Shown here one piece after another: positions 1-32,166 of a stretch of 33,294 bases of DNA. A program made the position numbers and the translations under genes. The notes under the pieces are model-generated. The model saw only the letters and a list, made by a program, of their open reading frames with translations, made no database searches and had not been told where the DNA came from. Position 1 is the stretch's first letter, and the number at the start of each line of letters is the position of its first letter. The stretch is from contig JAGNYI010000007.1 in NCBI GenBank assembly GCA_017985015.1, positions 1 to 33,294 on the forward strand, given 5' to 3'. Source of the stretch: Giesbergeria sp. Its GTDB lineage: Bacteria > Pseudomonadota > Gammaproteobacteria > Burkholderiales > Burkholderiaceae_C.

Positions 1-1
1 T

Positions 2-868
2 TCACAAAAACCGCCGCTTAAGATGTACGACCGACTTGCCCACCGCGTCGCTCGTTCGTCGCAAGCGACGCCCGCCGCCGTGGACAAGTCTTCAAGCGCC
101 TCGAACACAAAAATTCAGACGGCCCCCCGCGCGGTAATTGTCTATGGCCTCAGAGCAGACAATGACGCGACCCTCGTCAACACTCTATCGGCCCAGAGAA
201 AAGTCCCTACAGAAATAGTTTTTTATGATGATCTACTTGATCGAATGAGCGAGGTCTATGCAATCGCCAGGCGAGATAGCGCTTCACGCGTGGGGTGGTG
301 CTTTGTATCTCATCTTTACCTGGCTCCTGAGCGAATCTATCAAAAGGCTTTTCTTGCTGCGTACGGCTCTGCTGACGCAGACAACATTTCCGCCTACCTA
401 GAGAATGGCGAGATTGTTTTTGAGTGTCGCGACTCAACACAGAAATTGCATCGACTAAGTGCGCCCGTTATGGGACTCGGCCCTCACTACGTGAGGTTCG
501 AGTTCTCGACTGATGAGAGCGGTGCCTACATGTCGCTCAACGTAAATAATACTGAGGCGGATCTTCGAATTAGCAAGAGCGTTCTGAACCTATTCCCAGA
601 CACAGAACTATTCACGCTTGGTGCCGATTCACACGGCGGGAACGGAGCCCATTTCTATATGCTGGAGCATTATTTCGTAAGCCGCACCATGGACATGGCC
701 GAAAAGCTTGGCTCATTTTATTACTTCCAGAGAAAGACGGGCGCCTCATCACACTGTATGGAGTTCAAACCTCAGAGCTACATGACTAGGCAGCCTCATG
801 GCCTTGTTCAGGATCATGAGGAATTTAAGCCGGTGCTTAGGGCGTGGCCGCTACCGAGTGAGGCATAA
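2..868 (+). CDS. Integron-cassette protein, possible Shedu (DUF4263)-like C-terminus plus LamG/ConA-like domain; 5' end uncertain
   Basis: The first ATG is at 23 (281 codons), but the frame is open to the window edge and no clear ribosome-binding site precedes the ATG, so the gene may begin further left. Residues ~36-75 (counted from that ATG) run AVIVYGLRAD...VFYDDLLDRM. This resembles the last strand-helix part of Shedu/DUF4263 nucleases, which typically read 'IIGR...I.TYDDLLER'; the catalytic part would lie upstream. Residues ~90-235 look like an all-beta LamG/concanavalin-type sandwich ending FTLGADSHGG...FYMLEHYFVSR...E.LGSFYYFQRK. No signal peptide or membrane segment is seen. The gene is visibly richer in A+T than its neighbours and its TAA lies inside an attC-like site, so I infer an integron cassette. 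Both domain assignments are pattern matches by eye; a purely hypothetical protein is the fallback. Confidence 0.6.
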   Translation, partial: SQKPPLKMYDRLAHRVARSSQATPAAVDKSSSASNTKIQTAPRAVIVYGLRADNDATLVNTLSAQRKVPTEIVFYDDLLDRMSEVYAIARRDSASRVGWCFVSHLYLAPERIYQKAFLAAYGSADADNISAYLENGEIVFECRDSTQKLHRLSAPVMGLGPHYVRFEFSTDESGAYMSLNVNNTEADLRISKSVLNLFPDTELFTLGADSHGGNGAHFYMLEHYFVSRTMDMAEKLGSFYYFQRKTGASSHCMEFKPQSYMTRQPHGLVQDHEEFKPVLRAWPLPSEA

Positions 869-920
869 CAACTCGTTCAAGCCGACGCCGCTTCGCGGCG
901 TGGCTTAACTCAGGCTACAA
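863..920 (+). repeat. attC-like integron recombination site (59-base element)
   Basis: The R''-type box GCATAAC (863-869) overlaps the TAA of the preceding gene. It is followed by a near-palindrome: left arm 879-891 (AAGCCGACGCCGC) pairs with right arm 895-906 (GCGGCGTGGCTT) around a TTC loop. The left arm carries one unpaired G (884), the extrahelical base expected in folded attC sites. The spacer AACTCGTT and the right-hand TTAACTCAGGC match the usual attC layout. A canonical R' box (GTTATGC would pair with R'') is missing; GCTACAA stands there. The site is therefore probably the degenerate right end of a cassette array. Confidence 0.8.
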
Positions 921-1251
921 GGGCTTCCCCATAAAAGTCAAACAAATTTCCAACCTTGATGCATCGCGCAGCGATGGATCACGGAATGCATTTCGACTGA
1001 CTTGATTCAATCCACACCATCTGCGCCAGCACTACGTTGCCCAGTCGAGCAAGGAATGCGGACAGCGAAACTACAAACGGTCATTAATGCTGCTTGTTGC
1101 AGCGGACCCTGATGAAAAGACGCGCGCGGGGGACCCATTCGAGAGGCCAACCAAACAACGGCGGCGCCGTAGCTGCTGCCACCCCAGCGTTCGACCGCGC
1201 ACGCGCCCCGCAGCTGCCACACTTGGGCCTTCTGCCAACCACCGGACAAGC
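921..1251. other. Intergenic region between cassette end and chromosomal genes
   Basis: About 330 bp without a convincing gene. Open frames through 1084-1250 on both strands are out-of-frame or upstream extensions of the next gene and resemble no family. No integrase gene, second attC, terminator or clear promoter was recognised. The sequence is A+T-rich up to about 1080 and then turns G+C-rich, which may mark the junction between mobile and native DNA. Confidence 0.5.
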
Positions 1252-1752
1252 ATGCCCCCCATCACCCCAACCGTTCTGCCCGAAGAAGCCCTGCTCCAGC
1301 GCTACAAGCGCGGCGGCGCTTATACCGATTGCTATTGCATGGACCTGCCCCGGCACGTATCCATGCCCGACTACATTTCGGCCTTCTACACCACGCCGCT
1401 TTTCAAGGTGGAGCGCAAGATCCTGGCCCTGGCCGCTGGCAAGCATTCGACGGATGAAGCCGCTCGGGACTTGGCCCACGGCCGCCAGGCCAGCTTTTCC
1501 GCCTGGCGCGTGGAAGACCGTTCCAGCAACCAGCTGTTGCTGTGTGACCATCTGGGCCGAACGCGGTCGTGGCTGATGGCAGAGCCCGGGGCTTTGTCCA
1601 CCCGGCTGTACTTCGGCTCGGCGGTGCTGCCAAAGTCCACAGCCGCAAGCGGCAAGGCGTCTTTCGGCTGGGCGTTCCACGCGCTTTCGGGCTTTCACCG
1701 GCTGTATACCAGGGCGCTGATGAGCGCTGCCCGCGCGAGGCTCGCCCAGTAA
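1252..1752 (+). CDS. Conserved hypothetical protein (possibly DUF2867-like)
   Basis: A 166-residue soluble protein without signal peptide or membrane segment. I chose the ATG at 1252 because homology-like sequence (YTDCYCMDLPR at ~24-34) starts soon after it; the ATG at 1087 would add a low-complexity basic leader. Recognisable blocks are AFYTTPLFKVER, FSAWRVEDR, GRTRSWLM and TRLYFGSAVLP, then a C-terminal helix rich in Arg and Ala (GFHRLYTRALMSAARARLA). The style matches betaproteobacterial conserved hypothetical proteins, perhaps related to DUF2867, but I cannot assign a function. The stop lies 9 bp before the ankyrin gene, so the two are probably cotranscribed. Confidence 0.65.
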   Translation: MPPITPTVLPEEALLQRYKRGGAYTDCYCMDLPRHVSMPDYISAFYTTPLFKVERKILALAAGKHSTDEAARDLAHGRQASFSAWRVEDRSSNQLLLCDHLGRTRSWLMAEPGALSTRLYFGSAVLPKSTAASGKASFGWAFHALSGFHRLYTRALMSAARARLAQ

Positions 1753-1761
1753 AAGGCCACC

Positions 1762-2097
1762 ATGTCCGCAGGCGACTGGAAAAGCATGTACCAAGCCGCT
1801 GTCAGCGGCAATCTGCCGCTGCTGCAGCACCACCTGCGCGAAGGTGTGGACCCGAACTACCAGCACCCCGAGATCCTGCGCACGGTGCTGGTGGCCAGCT
1901 TGGTCGAGGGCCATGCGGAGGTGGCGCACCACCTGCTGGCCCACGGGGCGGACCCGAACCTGGTGTCCGGGCTGGACGACCTCTCGCCCCTGCAGGCCGC
2001 CCGCCGCCACGGGCGCCATGAGTTCGTGGCGCTGCTGCGCGGGCTCGGGGCGAAGGAAACGCGCAAACCGTTCTGGTGGCGCTGGCTGCCGATTTAG
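1762..2097 (+). CDS. Small ankyrin-repeat protein
   Basis: 111 residues, almost entirely ankyrin repeats. Helix pairs with the diagnostic pattern are visible: 'MYQAAVSGNLPLLQHHLREGVDPNY' style at residues ~9-33, 'ASLVEGHAEVAHHLLAHGADPNL' style at ~45-67, and a third repeat beginning 'LSPLQAARRHGRHEFVALL' (~74-92). A basic aromatic tail (KPFWWRWLPI) ends the protein. Such proteins mediate protein-protein contacts; the partner cannot be told from sequence. AAAAGG at 1751-1756 is a fitting ribosome-binding site for the ATG at 1762. The gene probably forms a transcription unit with the preceding hypothetical gene. Confidence 0.8.
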   Translation: MSAGDWKSMYQAAVSGNLPLLQHHLREGVDPNYQHPEILRTVLVASLVEGHAEVAHHLLAHGADPNLVSGLDDLSPLQAARRHGRHEFVALLRGLGAKETRKPFWWRWLPI

Positions 2098-2153
2098 CCT
2101 ACCCGTTCGGGAACCAATGCCCGTACGCTTTGTGGCGCCTATCCCATTCAAAA

Positions 2154-2687
2154 ATGTTCCAAGAGATTCTTGCGTTCTGGTTGCATGAAATCGACGCCAA
2201 CCAGTGGCGCACCTACGATCCGGCCTTTGATGCCTTGCTCAGGAAGCGTTTCCTGGGCTGCCTGCAGCAAGCCGCCGCGGGCGAATTGTTCGCCTGGCGC
2301 GCCAGCCCGGCGGGGCGCCTGGCCGAGGTGATCGTACTGGACCAGTTCTCACGCAACATCCACCGCGGCACGCCGCTGGCGTTCAGCCAGGATGGGATGG
2401 CGCTGGTACTGGCGCAGGAGGCCATTTCCGCCGGCGCGATGTCCGTCTTGGATGAAGAGGAACGCGCCTTCCTCCTCATGCCTCACATGCACAGCGAGTC
2501 CCGCACCATTCACGCGCAGGCCGAGGTGTTGTTCCAGCGCTATGCGCCGTCGCGCCATCAACCCGAGCTGCGGCACAAGGCCGTCATCGACCGGTTCGGG
2601 CGCTACCCCCACCGGAATGCCATTCTGGGCCGCGCTTGCACCGACGAAGAAATCGAATTCCTCAAGCTGCCGGGGTCGAGCTTTTAG
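2154..2687 (+). CDS. DUF924 family protein
   Basis: 177 residues beginning MFQEILAFWL, the usual start of DUF924 proteins (the domain opens with 'ILdFWFgeid...W'). The family's hallmark blocks are all present: aspartate/arginine-rich LIVLDQFSRNIHRGTP-type segment (~62-77), FLLMPHMHSES (~105-115), and the C-terminal RFGRYPHRNAILGR...EEIEFL (~145-168). An upstream extension to 2076 is open but overlaps the ankyrin gene and lacks family similarity, so the ATG at 2154 is preferred. DUF924 proteins are soluble helical proteins of tetratricopeptide-like fold whose biochemical role is not established as far as I know. The next gene, arsR, has its own promoter. Confidence 0.85.
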   Translation: MFQEILAFWLHEIDANQWRTYDPAFDALLRKRFLGCLQQAAAGELFAWRASPAGRLAEVIVLDQFSRNIHRGTPLAFSQDGMALVLAQEAISAGAMSVLDEEERAFLLMPHMHSESRTIHAQAEVLFQRYAPSRHQPELRHKAVIDRFGRYPHRNAILGRACTDEEIEFLKLPGSSF

Positions 2688-2789
2688 GGGCTTCTGTGGT
2701 CCGGGGAGCAGGGCCCGATCACGCAAATCGAGCGGATGGAGCTCGCGCGTGCTTTCGAGCGCTGGGCAGCGCCTTTTTTCACAGGCCCA

Positions 2790-2840
2790 TTGACAGCGGC
2801 GCTTTATTTCGATTATCGTAGAAATATCGTATCAGAAGAC
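2790..2840 (+). promoter_or_regulatory. Promoter and likely operator of arsR-arsM
   Basis: TTGACA at 2790-2795 is followed, 18 bp later, by TATCGT (2814-2819), a good sigma-70 promoter. Overlapping the -10 region is a short symmetric A+T-rich sequence: CGATTATCG (2810-2818), then a repeat of ATATCG (2824-2829) embedded in TATCGTAT. This is where an autoregulating ArsR-type repressor would be expected to bind. The operator assignment is inference; the promoter hexamers are seen directly. Confidence 0.5.
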
Positions 2841-2845
2841 GCAGA

Positions 2846-3190
2846 ATGCCCGCCACACCCCCGCCCTCCACCACGGCCCGATTTGCCCACATGCTTGCCG
2901 CAATGGGTACCGAGCCCCGCTTGGCCATCGTGCGCTTGCTGCTCACCGCCCACCCCGAGGGGCTGGTGGTCGGCCAGATCGGCACCGAACTCGGCATGGC
3001 GGCTTCCACGCTCTCGCACCACCTGGACAAGCTGCGGACCGAGGGCCTGGTGTCCGTCCAGCGGGAAGGCACCTTCCTGCGTTGCACCGCCAACACCGCC
3101 GGGCTGGAAGCCCTGCTCGGCTTTCTGTACGCCGAGTGCTGTACCCGCAACCAGGCGGTGGAGCCCCAGCGCATTACCTGCTGCGATTGA
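2846..3190 (+). CDS. arsR: ArsR-family arsenic-responsive repressor with C-terminal cysteine cluster
   Basis: 114-residue winged-helix protein of the ArsR/SmtB family. The recognition helix is in 'GMAASTLSHHLDKLRTEGLV' (~50-69) and the wing in 'VSVQREGTFLRC' (~69-80). The classical ELCVCDL metal site in the DNA-binding helix is absent. Instead a Cys98-Cys99 pair and a Cys112-Cys113 pair lie in the C-terminal dimerisation region, like the alternative As(III) site known from the Acidithiobacillus ferrooxidans ArsR group. It probably represses itself and the adjacent arsM until arsenite binds. The arsM start follows 26 bp downstream, so the two form one operon. Confidence 0.88.
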   Translation: MPATPPPSTTARFAHMLAAMGTEPRLAIVRLLLTAHPEGLVVGQIGTELGMAASTLSHHLDKLRTEGLVSVQREGTFLRCTANTAGLEALLGFLYAECCTRNQAVEPQRITCCD

Positions 3191-3216
3191 ACCGAACCCC
3201 AACCAAGGAGAAATTC

Positions 3217-4116
3217 ATGAACGACATGGCGAATGTGAAGGAAGTGGTCAAGCAGAAATACGGCGCGGCCGCCGAGCATGTGGCGCAGGGGCGTGGCAAC
3301 GCCTGCTGTGGTGGCTCGGCCGCGTCGCCCGAACAGTGGGACCCCATTACCTCGAACCTGTACGACCAGGCCCAGGCGGACGACGTGCCCGCCACAGCGA
3401 TGCTGGCATCGCTGGGCTGCGGCAACCCGACCGCGTTGGCGGAACTCCAGGTCGGCGAGACGGTGCTGGACCTCGGCTCCGGCGGCGGCATCGACGTTCT
3501 GCTCTCGGCCAAACGTGTCGGCCCCACCGGGACCGCTTACGGCTTGGACATGACCGACCAGATGCTGACTCTGGCACAGGAGAACAAGCTCAAGAGCGGC
3601 CTGTCCAACGTCCATTTCCTGAAGGGCGAGATCGAGCACATCCCGCTGCCCGCCAATTCGGTGGACGTCATCATCTCCAATTGCGTGATCAACCTGTCGG
3701 CCGACAAGGACAGCGTGCTGCGCGAAGCCTTCCGCGTGCTCAAGCCGGGCGGACGTTTCGCGGTGTCCGACGTGGTGGTGCGCGGCGAAATGCCCGAATC
3801 CATCCGCCGCAACATGGAACTGTGGATCGGCTGCGTGGCCGGAGCGCTGCGCGATACCGACTACCTCACCAAGCTGCAGGCCGCTGGCTTCGAGGACGCG
3901 GACATCGAAGTCACGCGCGTCTACACGGCAGAAGACGCCGCCGAGTTCCTGGCGGGCCAGCCGGCTCAGCTTCAGCAACTGGCGCGCGAGGTGGACGGTC
4001 GCTTCGTCAGCGGCTTCGTGCGGGCACGCAAACCCCTTGCCACAGGGAAGACGGCCGAAGGCGCGGCACCTACCGCTGCAACCGCGGCCGGTGGCAGCCG
4101 CGCACGCTGCTGCTGA
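3217..4116 (+). CDS. arsM: Arsenite S-adenosylmethionine methyltransferase ArsM
   Basis: 299-residue cytosolic class I SAM-dependent methyltransferase that converts As(III) to methylated arsenicals. The ATG at 3217 follows AAGGAG (3205-3210). The SAM-binding motif I is VLDLGSGGGID (~83-93). The three cysteines essential in characterised ArsM enzymes are matched by Cys68 (SLGCGNP), Cys156 (SNCVINL) and Cys206 (IGCVAG). An extra Cys30-Cys31 pair sits near the N-terminus and a Cys-Cys pair ends the protein after an Ala/Thr/Gly-rich tail (~275-299), which may help arsenic capture. No arsenite pump or reductase gene is in the window, so this unit would detoxify by methylation alone or cooperate with genes elsewhere. 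Confidence 0.95.
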   Translation: MNDMANVKEVVKQKYGAAAEHVAQGRGNACCGGSAASPEQWDPITSNLYDQAQADDVPATAMLASLGCGNPTALAELQVGETVLDLGSGGGIDVLLSAKRVGPTGTAYGLDMTDQMLTLAQENKLKSGLSNVHFLKGEIEHIPLPANSVDVIISNCVINLSADKDSVLREAFRVLKPGGRFAVSDVVVRGEMPESIRRNMELWIGCVAGALRDTDYLTKLQAAGFEDADIEVTRVYTAEDAAEFLAGQPAQLQQLAREVDGRFVSGFVRARKPLATGKTAEGAAPTAATAAGGSRARCC

Positions 4117-4126
4117 AATGCACGCC

Positions 4127-4176
4127 CGGGCGGCAGTGGCTTGGGTTGCTTGGTCGGTAAAAGCCACTGCCGCCCG
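4127..4176 (+). repeat. 16-bp perfect inverted repeat after arsM
   Basis: The arm at 4127-4142 is exactly complementary to 4161-4176, separated by an 18-nt loop (core GGGCGGCAGTGGCTT / AAGCCACTGCCGCCC). It starts 10 bp after the arsM stop. No T-run follows, so it is not a classical terminator; it could stabilise the 3' end of the arsR-arsM mRNA or be the trace of an insertion. Confidence 0.75.
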
Positions 4177-4290
4177 CACACCGTCGTAGCCGAAGGTGGC
4201 CTGGGCGCCTGCTCTCCGCTGATCCGGAGCGATGGGCGCGGAGACCTAGGCAACATCACGGCATCGCGGCATTCACGGGATAAGCAGAAC

Positions 4291-4324
4291 AAAAAAGCCC
4301 CTTTCCACAGAGGAAAGGGGCTTT
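4291..4324 (-). terminator. Rho-independent terminator of icd
   Basis: Perfect 13-bp hairpin (4294-4306 with 4312-4324, 5-nt loop). On the minus strand it ends in a run of six T (complement of the A-run at 4291-4296). It lies 35 bp downstream of the icd stop. Confidence 0.9.
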
Positions 4325-4358
4325 GATTTCGGGGCGTCTCCGCTCCCGAAAGGCAGGG

Positions 4359-5618
4359 TTACATGTGGTCGATCATGACCTGTCCAAAGCCCGAGCAGCT
4401 CACCTGCGTGGCGCCGTCCATCAGGCGGGCGAAGTCGTAGGTGACTTTCTTGCTGGCAATCGACTTCTTCATCGAGCTGATGATGAGGTCGGCCGCTGCC
4501 GTCCAGCCCATGTGGCGCAGCATCATTTCGGCAGACAGAATCTCGGAACCGGGGTTCACGTAGTCCTTGCCGGCGTACTTGGGCGCCGTGCCGTGCGTGG
4601 CTTCGAACATGGCAATGGTGTCCGACAGGTTGGCGCCGGGGGCGATGCCGATGCCGCCGACTTGCGCGGCCAGGGCGTCAGACACATAGTCACCGTTGAG
4701 GTTGAGCGTAGCAATCACCGAGTACTCGGCCGGGCGCAGCAGGATTTGCTGCAGGAAGGCGTCGGCAATGCTGTCCTTGATGGTGATGTTCGTGCCCGTG
4801 CGGGGGTTCTTGAACTGCATCCAGGGACCGCCATCGATCAGTTCGGCGCCGAATTCCTTGGCGGCCAGGCCGTAGGACCAGTCGCGGAAGCCCCCTTCGG
4901 TGAACTTCATGATGTTGCCCTTGTGCACGATGGTGACGCTGGGCTTGTCGTTGTCGATGGCGTACTGGATGGCCTTGCGCACCAGGCGTTCGGTGCCTTC
5001 GCGCGAGACGGGTTTGATGCCGATGCCCGACGTGGCAGGGAAGCGGATCTTCGTGACGCCCATTTCGTCCTGCAGGAACTTGATGAGCTTCTTGGCCTTG
5101 TCGGACTCGGCTTCGAATTCGATGCCGGCGTAGATGTCTTCCGAGTTCTCGCGGAAGATGACCATGTTGGTCTTGTGCGGCTCTTTCACGGGCGAGGGCA
5201 CGCCCTCAAAATACTGGATGGGGCGCAGGCAGACGTACAGGTCAAGCTCCTGGCGCAGGGCCACGTTCAGCGAGCGGATGCCGCCGCCCACGGGCGTGGT
5301 CAGCGGGCCTTTGATGGAGACGACGTAGTCTTTGATGGCGGCCAGGGTTTCCTCAGGCAACCAGACGTCGGGGCCGTACACCTTGGTCGCCTTTTCGCCA
5401 GCGTAAACCTCCATCCAATGGATTTTCTTCTTGCCGCCGTAGGCCCTGGCCACGGCTGCATCGACCACCTTGAGCATCACGGGCGTGATGTCGCCGCCCG
5501 TGCCGTCGCCTTCGATGAAGGGGATGATCGGCTGGTCCGGCACATTCAAGGACATGTCGGTATTGACGGTGATTTTCGCGCCTTCGGCGGGAACCTTGAT
5601 GTGCTGGTAGCTGGTCAT
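4359..5618 (-). CDS. icd: NADP-dependent isocitrate dehydrogenase, homodimeric type
   Basis: 419 residues from the ATG at 5618 ([13 protein letters not shown]), preceded by GGAG. The frame stays open 48 bp further upstream, but family members start at this position. It converts isocitrate to 2-oxoglutarate plus CO2 and NADPH in the TCA cycle. Family blocks: [13 protein letters not shown] near the N-terminus, the substrate loop [12 protein letters not shown] with the serine phosphorylated by IDH kinase in E. coli, Mg-binding aspartates in the region [10 protein letters not shown], and the NADP-binding [11 protein letters not shown] with [13 protein letters not shown]. Length equals that of E. 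coli Icd. A second, unrelated IDH lies about 1.1 kb away on the same strand. Confidence 0.96.
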
Positions 5619-5806
5619 GTAAGCAAAACTCCGTTGAGGCTGAAGGACTTTCAGCAAGTTAGGCAAAACTCTCTAAACCGTTCAATTCTAGCCACAAAAA
5701 TTTTCACCATTCCCTGTCAACGGTGCGGTTCGCATGCCGTTGTTAGCTGGCTTGCATTCGCTTGTTAAGCATCAAGAAACGGCGTTTTCCTATTTTGAAA
5801 GTTCTT

Positions 5807-6075: not shown

Positions 6076-6104
6076 AAAATGGCCCGCTGCATGCGGGCCT
6101 TTTC
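6076..6104 (+). terminator. Rho-independent terminator of the small exported-protein gene
   Basis: GGCCCGC (6081-6087) pairs with GCGGGCC (6093-6099) around a 5-nt loop. It is flanked by AAAA on the left and TTTT on the right, so it may work in both directions. It lies about 35 bp after the stop codon. Confidence 0.8.
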
Positions 6105-6146
6105 ATGCCCGCTTGCGAACGTGCCAACCGCTTTTTTGGAGTGTCG

Positions 6147-6623
6147 ATGCCTGCACTTTCCCTGTTCTCCCGATGTTCGCGGCACCTGGCGCTTCTGGCG
6201 CTGCTGACAAGCTTCGCAAATGTCCATGCGCAAGAAGCACCGCAGATGGATTTGCCACGCGTCGAGCTCACGGCCGGTATGTACCGCATTGATGCGCAAT
6301 TGGCCCAGACGCCTGGCCAGCGCCAGATCGGCCTGATGCATCGCAAATCCATGCCGCCCCAGGAGGGCATGCTGTTCATCTTCGAGCAGCCGGGTGTCCA
6401 GTGTTTCTGGATGAAGAACACTCTGCTGCCACTCACGGCGGCATTCGTTGCCGACGACGGCAGCATCGTGAATCTGGCGGACATGCAACCCCAGTCCGAA
6501 ACCTCGCACTGCTCGCAAAAGCCGGTGCGCTATGTGCTCGAAATGAACCAGGGCTGGTTTTCTCAGAAACGCCTCAAGGCCGGTAGCAAGCTGAGCGGTG
6601 CCCCTTTCTCTGCGCCCCACTGA
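6147..6623 (+). CDS. DUF192 family exported protein
   Basis: 158 residues starting with a signal peptide (hydrophobic core LALLALLTSFANVHA, cleavage probably after VHA, ~28). The DUF192 domain follows: VELTAGMYRIDAQLAQT...RQIGLMHRKSMPPQEGMLFIF (~38-80), CFWMKNTLLPLTAAFV (~90-105) and the C-terminal RYVLEMNQGWF (~132-142). The MxR...M...GMLF...FWMKNT...LD pattern defines the family. Its members are small periplasmic or membrane-attached beta-barrel proteins of unknown biochemical role. The ATG at 6147 follows TTGGAG; earlier in-frame starts overlap the upstream terminator. A strong terminator ends the gene, so it is monocistronic. Confidence 0.9.
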   Translation: MPALSLFSRCSRHLALLALLTSFANVHAQEAPQMDLPRVELTAGMYRIDAQLAQTPGQRQIGLMHRKSMPPQEGMLFIFEQPGVQCFWMKNTLLPLTAAFVADDGSIVNLADMQPQSETSHCSQKPVRYVLEMNQGWFSQKRLKAGSKLSGAPFSAPH

Positions 6624-31236: not shown

Positions 31237-32166
31237 TTACGCCTTGCGGCTGGGGCTCTTGCGTGCAGGGGCTTTGGCAGCGGGCGACTTCCGGGCTGCT
31301 GGCGCACGGGCCGGTGCGGCCTTGGCGGCAGGGCTGGCGCGCTTGGCGGGAGCCGCCTTTTTCGCCGGTGCAGCGCTCTTTGCAGGCACTGCCTTTTTGG
31401 CCGGAGCACCGGCGCTGCGGGGCTTGACCACCAATTTCTGAATACTGGTGGTCTTGGCGGCTGGCGCCTTGCCTGCTGTCTTGGCGGCGGCCTTGGGCGC
31501 TGCTTTTGGGGTGGCCTTCAGAGCCACTTGCGGAGCAGCCTTTGGCACGAACTTCGGAGCTGCCTTCGCCGGTGCCTTGGCAGCAGCCCTGGCCGGCGCA
31601 GCGGATCGCGAAGGGGCTTTGCGGGCCGGTGCCTTGGCAGCGGGCGCCGCGGTGGGAGCGCTGGCGCCCTTGCGCGGCGCCGCCTTCTTGGCGGGTGCAG
31701 CAGCTTCTGTCGCCGCCGCTGCCTTGGCGGCGCGGCGCGCGGCCGTCTTCACGGGCACCTTGGCTTCTGGCGCCACGGGTTTGGCGGCGCCCAGCTTGAG
31801 GCGCACAGGCATCTCGCCCCACAAGTCTTCCAGCCGGTAGTACTGGCGGATGGTGGGCTGCATGATGTGCGCCACGGCCGCGCCGCAGTCCACGATGATC
31901 CACTCGCCGTTTTCTTCACCTTCGGTGCGCGGCTTGGGAAAACCGGCTTCCTTCACCGCATCGCGCACGCTGGCGGCCAGTGCCTTGGTTTGTCGGTTGG
32001 AGGTGCCGGACGCCACGATGACACGCTCGAACAGCGGCGAGAGGTGCTCGGTGTTGAACACCTGAATGTCCTGCGCCTTTACGTCTTCGAGGCCATCCAC
32101 AATGGCGCGCTGGAGTTTGGCGACGTCTTTCTTGGCGGTGGATTCCGAGGTTTTGGAGGTGGTCAT
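31237..32166 (-). CDS. rsfS: Ribosomal silencing factor RsfS with long histone-H1-like C-terminal tail
   Basis: 309 residues, more than twice the usual ~105-130. Residues ~13-125 are a complete RsfS (DUF143/Iojap) domain: QRAIVDGLEDVKAQDIQVFN, HLSPLFERVIVASGTSNRQTKALA, NGEWIIVDCGAAVAHIMQPTIRQYYRLEDLWGE. The domain binds ribosomal protein uL14 and blocks subunit joining in starvation. Residues ~130-309 are a low-complexity tail of Ala, Lys and Pro (repeats of the type PAKKAAPAK, KAPARK), strongly basic and resembling eukaryotic histone H1 tails and bacterial H1-like proteins. The whole tail is in frame with no stop. nadD, often upstream of rsfS, is absent here. Confidence 0.93.
   Translation of the reverse strand: MTTSKTSESTAKKDVAKLQRAIVDGLEDVKAQDIQVFNTEHLSPLFERVIVASGTSNRQTKALAASVRDAVKEAGFPKPRTEGEENGEWIIVDCGAAVAHIMQPTIRQYYRLEDLWGEMPVRLKLGAAKPVAPEAKVPVKTAARRAAKAAAATEAAAPAKKAAPRKGASAPTAAPAAKAPARKAPSRSAAPARAAAKAPAKAAPKFVPKAAPQVALKATPKAAPKAAAKTAGKAPAAKTTSIQKLVVKPRSAGAPAKKAVPAKSAAPAKKAAPAKRASPAAKAAPARAPAARKSPAAKAPARKSPSRKA

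Follow-up and report, generated by a model that had tools for sequence, protein, structure and literature searches.

Several described systems bear on the stretch of DNA analysed here. Insertion sequences of the IS1111 family are reported to carry end extensions of 3 and 7 bp, occasionally 3 and 6 bp, and one group within the family, the IS1111-attC elements (ISKpn4, ISPst6 and ISPa25), is described as targeting one end of the attC sites of integrons (PMC11187229). ISPa21 has been reported as a further member of this group (PMC11616780), and attC targeting by elements of this type is already known. IS621, a relative, is reported to be able to excise the DNA between its target and its donor when both lie on one molecule (PMC11208160). 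As for the decay of integrons, the ilvD locus of Xanthomonas has been described as holding chromosomal integrons with a lost intI, as well as clusters of attC sites lacking integrases (CALIN), and Shedu is among the cassette genes reported there (PMC12444791).

The sequence we analysed (the window) comprises 33,294 bp and is the start of contig C83 of a Giesbergeria sp. genome. Its features are collected in Table 1. The most likely reading of its left end is that a chromosomal integron at the mmsB-icd locus has been worn down to one broken cassette. In full, we consider it highly probable that this is an integron remnant that has lost intI, whose remaining Shedu-like cassette was broken by an IS21-family element and whose attC was split by an IS1111-attC-type element that has since been deleted. 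Decay of this kind is ordinary for integrons, although its anatomy here is unusually legible.

Table 1. Features at the left end of the window and in its conserved right chromosomal flank
Feature	Position	Strand	Remarks
IS21-family right end (downstream of istB)	1-126	+	Identical ends on other contigs
Shedu-like (SduA/DUF4263) cassette gene remnant	127-868	+	C-terminal ~246 aa; 59-67% identity to relatives
Disrupted attC	863-915	+	R'' GCATAAC 863-869, hairpin 879-906, extrahelical G884, spacer up to C915
IS1111-attC-type (IS110 family) right-end stub	916-1141	-	226 bp, region downstream of transposase gene; 97% match to full copy on contig C101
Stub termini	916-918; 919-930		TAC 3-bp extension; subterminal inverted repeat
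CATTCG, start of putative target-matching segment	1136-1141		Last letters of the stub; CATTCGTTAG in most full copies
GAGAGGC, speculatively a degenerate remnant of the original R' box	1141-1147	+	From sequence only; 5/7 positions fit GTTRRRY
Isocitrate dehydrogenase gene (icd-like), conserved right chromosomal flank	4362-5666	-	PF00180, E 4e-87

The attC site and its cassette gene

The stretch at 863-915 is a genuine integron attC site, disrupted and not complete. An earlier note, made from the letters alone, had proposed an attC-like site here, with GCATAAC lying over the stop codon of a gene and followed by an imperfect hairpin with one extrahelical G, and its reading of the left side of the site is borne out in each part. 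GCATAAC fits the R'' consensus RYYYAAC at six of seven positions (the third is A, not Y) and overlaps the TAA of the cassette gene at 866-868, an R'' box being expected to overlap or follow the stop codon. The predicted DNA fold of 855-930 agrees exactly with the proposed hairpin, 879-883 and 885-891 pairing with 895-906 around a loop at 892-894 and G884 remaining extrahelical (z -3.35; 0 of 200 shuffles are equally stable). The missing R' box had been noticed as well: GTTRRRY is expected directly after C915 and is absent, the window reading TACAAGG instead.

Two further lines of evidence identify the site. When window positions 1-1260 were compared with plasmids by blastn (3143 records, the attC comparisons being drawn from the best 20), the attC sites of class 1 integron cassettes shared 84-93% identity with 863-915; in the same best 20, the stretch at ~847-940 reaches up to 92.9% identity with the attC of aadB, 88.1% with that of aadA6, 85.7% with that of fosI, and 84.0% with the site behind aadA1. 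Judged by these plasmid matches, the host would belong to Burkholderiales, probably to Comamonadaceae. A covariance model was built from 17 aligned sites (11 from plasmids, five from other contigs of the same genome and one from a relative, the window being excluded). Its match to 863-920 scores 46.9 bits (E 5.3e-8 in a search of 170,425 bases), which is partly family likeness, as the training set includes near relatives of the window attC such as that of aadB. The site ranks ninth among the 16 model matches despite its lost right box. The same model found no second attC up to E 5 in the whole window. The genome-wide search with this model scored 150 of 4964 first-look candidates; the window site is not listed there and was found by direct search of the window. 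Rfam gave nothing in the window at gathering thresholds, and the dedicated attC model was used instead. A scan that combined R''/R' motifs with folding was too strict, then too loose, and was given no evidential weight.

Of the gene closed by this attC, a Shedu-like anti-phage gene, the C-terminal part remains, its 5' side cut by an IS21-family end. Window 128-865 has three relatives in our collection of genome contigs, in Psychrobacter immobilis, P. glacincola and a MAG labelled Bacteroidia. The remnant matches residues 148-390, and keeps about residues 148-394, of the 395-aa proteins at loci L041 and L042, and these full proteins match PF14082 (SduA_C) at 28.4 and 29.0 bits (cut-off 27) and the PADLOC SduA models weakly. 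The DUF4263 nuclease domain is present in the full-length relatives and lost from the remnant, which gave no PF14082 match above the cut-off. Downstream of the stop codon in L041 lies an attC-like stretch, which the model scores at only 12.9 bits (E 3.6). As for the cut itself, the first 125-126 bp of the window recur identically at the ends of contigs C42, C38, C84 and C70, with flanks that diverge from about base 127, and window 30-98 matches the stretch directly after istA/istB in two plasmids. The contig probably breaks at window base 1 because this IS21-family end sequence is repeated. The earlier note was silent on this end, as it was on the element stub at 916-1141.

The mmsB-icd locus and other integron parts of the genome

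The chromosomal setting is best seen from the relatives. In six of the 12 compared, icd follows mmsB on a single contig, with gene order and orientation unchanged. The two are neighbours, 0.16 to 15.4 kb apart, in G004 (0.16 kb), G006 (1.2 kb), G014 (3.3 kb) and G003 (15.4 kb), and are 35 kb apart in G007 and 74 kb apart in G012. The two genes are far apart in G022 and G002 and on different contigs in G015, G017 and G010, and G013, the last of the 12, has no strong match to either. From the stub to icd the window (1142-4358) holds ankyrin, DUF924, ArsR-like and methyltransferase genes. At the locus itself, 1142-4290 turned up neither in the five relatives covered in full nor in the covered half of G012; 2790-4116 or part of it has 84-86% matches elsewhere in G003 and G021.

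The left side of the locus appears to lie on contig C72. A query with residues 1-147 of the L041 protein found a single place in the genome, the last 105 bases of C72, which hold codons 1-35 of a Shedu-like gene, at 74% identity to L041. Toward its end C72 carries, in order, an mmsB-like gene (named from sequence and from gene order in relatives rather than by profile search), a terminator-like stem, a block resembling the DNA at the start of intI, an attI-like site (...CTAAATCTA-GTTATGCC) and this gene start. The block shares 26 bp at 92% identity with the DNA at the intI start of C16, a score that 0 of 1000 shuffles reach, and what is shared adjoins the intI start, not the crossover itself. 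The attI-like site has a modest likeness to that of G007 (14 of 1000 shuffles reach the score). G007 carries at the same place attI-like DNA and cassettes with two clear attC sites (50.7 and 35.3 bits), with a doubtful third at 15.3 bits; intI gave no match at its mmsB-icd locus, and the profile search of our genome found no integron integrase on C72. By the gene order in the relatives, the placement of C72 as left neighbour of C83 would seem well supported.

Between C72 and C83 the assembly has a gap: it lacks ~330 bp of the gene and the body of the IS21-family element, and C72 stops within the gene with no IS21 end visible there, so that we infer the single cassette rather than read it through. 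The same gap, together with the G007 array of at least two clear attC sites at the same place, gives some room to a rival reading in which the cassette of the window and the gene start on C72 come from different Shedu-like cassettes, the last and the first of a longer mmsB-icd array. We think this unlikely, if still worth keeping in mind: the N-terminal search found one place, the C-terminal part was found by DNA search only in the window, and the two parts are complementary within one 395-aa protein. The earlier description of the site as the end of an array holds to the extent that the attC closes the last cassette in a chromosomal setting; the array itself probably amounts to one cassette.

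The integron integrase profile has nine matches in the genome and none on C83, in agreement with the earlier remark that no integrase gene was in view, and neither C83 nor C72 shows the intI beside attI of a complete integron. Uninterrupted integrase genes are found on C16 (472 bits) and C10 (458 bits), broken ones on C9 and C94, and weak profile matches on C81 and C20. The C16 and C10 integrases are 57% and 61% identical to plasmid IntI1, and at these identities they are not taken as class 1. Strong attC sites outside the training set lie at C101:627-686, at the right end of C101 and on C97 (one site). Across the genome as a whole, the two uninterrupted integrases and these further attC sites speak against the refuting outcome named in the earlier note, no other attC site or integrase within reach upstream; C83 itself starts at base 1 of the window, with no sequence to its left. 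An integrase could act in trans in the same cell, and the window site is without the R' box that it would need.

Several other integron parts are visible in this genome. C9 carries a compact second integron (L022, 2315-6217), with an integrase in two pieces, one with a TAA, an attI-like site and then cassettes with attC sites at 3852-3938, 4839-4925 and 5326-5412 and an attC-like stretch of 114 bp at 6104-6217. C10 and C16 (L021 and L020) both terminate precisely at an attI-like core, GTTAG; if arrays followed it, they are on other contigs or absent. On C97 (L118, 3230-3941), an attI-like site is followed by a first cassette and a strong attC, and the protein of this cassette shows a weak likeness to the T5orf172 domain (E 0.005, short of the cut-off). 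Within the window, ARAGORN reports an 89-base tRNA-Ala at 31636-31724, where Rfam has nothing at gathering scores; this is probably a false call.

The element stub and its right limit

The R' half of the attC is split off, exactly where GTTRRRY should start, by an IS1111-attC-type right end. TAC followed by AAGGGCTTCCCC at 916-930 is the right end of the IS1111-attC group, and the insertion at an attC end is that of the group too; what the window holds is a remnant of a member of the group, not a working member. No transposase match was found in the window, the DEDD transposase being present in the full copies, and a search allowing up to three mismatches found no left-end repeat of the element there.

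Full copies on C101 and C62 of the same genome occupy the same attC point as the stub. The C101 element is ~1.53 kb long, with a 339-aa IS110-family transposase between a right end TACAAGGGCTTCCCC and a left end GGGGAAGTCCCTTTCATTC. It starts TAC-AAGGGCTTCCCC and finishes GGGGAAGTCCCTT-TCATTC, and its subterminal inverted repeats are near-perfect (a one-base gap). Its right extension of 3 bp and left extension of 6 bp, these repeats and the non-coding region 3' of the transposase fit the definition of IS1111 given in PMC11187229. The C101 insertion point reads ...GGTTAGCTCTAC before the element and GTTAGGT after it; that of the window reads ...CTTAACTCAGGC, followed by the stub. Eight element copies were read at both ends, including that of G022, whose far end is 2.6 kb away; seven of them have GTT after CATTC and one (pPNAP04) has TTT. 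Among ten distinct copies with the joint read the count is nine with GTT, the exception again being pPNAP04.

That plasmid (L037, 6228 and 7522) has internal CATTC-TTTATTC against a flank of CATTC-TTTATCC, unlike the usual GTTAG. Internal letters that match an altered flank are as expected if the target is RNA-guided; the match of guide letters to flank is partly circular, the copies having been found via their first eight letters, and only pPNAP04 tests it. IS1111-attC-type elements also lie in attI-like sites of two relatives in the genus (L089 of G012, ~7925 and 9380; L091 of G013, reverse strand), for example with GGGATACATCAC before the element and GTTAG after it. A decayed element in Serratia fonticola plas1 (L040, ~4001-4350) has internal CATTC-GAAATGC and a transposase-end fragment.

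The stub stops at CATTCG. In the non-coding region of full copies CATTCGTTAG has the same letters as the joint between the left end of the element (CATTC) and its target (GTTAG), so that CATTCG occurs at both sites and one deletion between its two copies would explain the stub in one step. We compared this segment at at least 44 loci (the window, 25 newly listed and 18 earlier; some share one genome). Among the 44 listed loci, the sequence continues beyond CATTCG in all 40 other readable ones, with TTAG in 32, CTAG or CTAA in five and other letters in three, and L049, L163 and L174 are cut off or diverged before this point. A stub ending in CATTCG is found in one of the 41 readable copies among these loci.

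Such a deletion might be the product of self-targeting, in which the complex of transposase and RNA, or recombination between the two CATTCG copies, deletes the DNA between them. The excision ascribed to IS621 provides a parallel, and right-end stubs could then permanently lock attC sites, RNA-guided insertion sequences leaving a recognisable, irreversible scar on integrons. We hold this to be improbable, given that the flank of the stub, GAGAGGC, is a poor target and that the stub is single among the readable copies. GAGAGGC could, speculatively, be what is left of the original R' box. As for an empty right-hand site in relatives, window 1142-1560 gave two short matches (51 and 36 bp) among 99 other genomes.

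Two other accounts of the right limit were rejected. A diverged continuation of the element past 1141 is probably chance: the likeness is weak, scores as high being reached in 15 of 500 shuffles and by 18 of 634 chunks from elsewhere in the window, and a 97% copy should not collapse there. IntI recombination at the internal CATTCG-TTAG is unlikely, the window letters AGAGGCC being without TT.

It is very unlikely that the 226 bp represent a gene-less cassette of their own, or a MITE-like unit, that moves between attC sites. Their precise placement at an attC would suit such a unit, and the right limit resembles a cassette end (CATTCG-TTAG in full copies), but the continuation past CATTCG at 40 of 40 other readable listed loci would not, nor would the related transposase that 36 of the 44 listed loci have within 1.6 kb. 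Even L051, L062 and L156, three other loci where 1.5 kb was available and no transposase was matched, retain sequence beyond CATTCG, and the window lacks a left-end repeat. Finally, the account in which the R' box simply decayed by point mutation into the GCTACAA of the earlier note, and the element letters match by chance, can be dismissed: GCTACAA is alignable with GTTRRRY, but the 227 bp from 915 (915-1141) are 97% identical to the C101 full element and 95-97% to the C62 copy at the same attC position, so the sequence that follows C915 belongs to the right end of the element, at its usual insertion point.

Probable course of integron decay and comparison with described systems

The decay would have run as follows. 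A chromosomal integron would formerly have stood between mmsB and icd, and its integrase gene would have been lost, leaving the attI-like site and one Shedu-like cassette. An IS21-family element broke the Shedu-like gene. Comparison with the full copies shows that an IS1111-attC-type element, of a kind guided by its own RNA, went in between the spacer of the attC and its R' box. It would then have lost its transposase and most of its length, and the 226-bp stub left behind now stands between the attC arms and any R' box. On the folded bottom strand, R'' and R' form the R box at which IntI cuts attC. With R' split off, the cassette should now be immobile, and the earlier note's view of a site unable to recombine would hold by way of the stub. 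One locus would thereby display the freezing of an integron, with its integrase lost, its gene broken by an insertion sequence and its attC split by an attC-seeking one. That an attC close to those of resistance cassettes closes a defence-like gene on a Burkholderiales chromosome is in line with such chromosomes as a source of cassettes.

The stub shares with ISKpn4, ISPst6, ISPa25 and ISPa21, as these are characterised in the accounts cited above, its attC-end target, subterminal repeats, short extensions and a non-coding region downstream of the transposase; the likeness is to the descriptions, not to ISfinder sequences. Unlike them, the window copy is without transposase and left end. The window attC is of the same 60-bp type as the class 1 cassette sites of aadB, aadA6 and fosI, being identical to that of aadB from CAAGCCGACGCC through CTTAACTCAGG. 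It differs from all three in that its R' box is separated by the stub, that its cassette gene is Shedu-like and not a resistance gene, and that its setting is chromosomal. Full-length relatives of that gene share PF14082 with the Shedu (SduA) anti-phage nucleases, whereas the remnant has no nuclease domain. With respect to CALIN (at least two attC sites without an integrase), the window holds one attC, below the two-site threshold of PMC12444791, and more could lie in the gap between C72 and C83. The place is mmsB-icd and not ilvD, and yet the window locus has in common with the Xanthomonas ilvD locus, as portrayed in that report, a fixed chromosomal place, an integrase lost or broken, and surviving cassettes.
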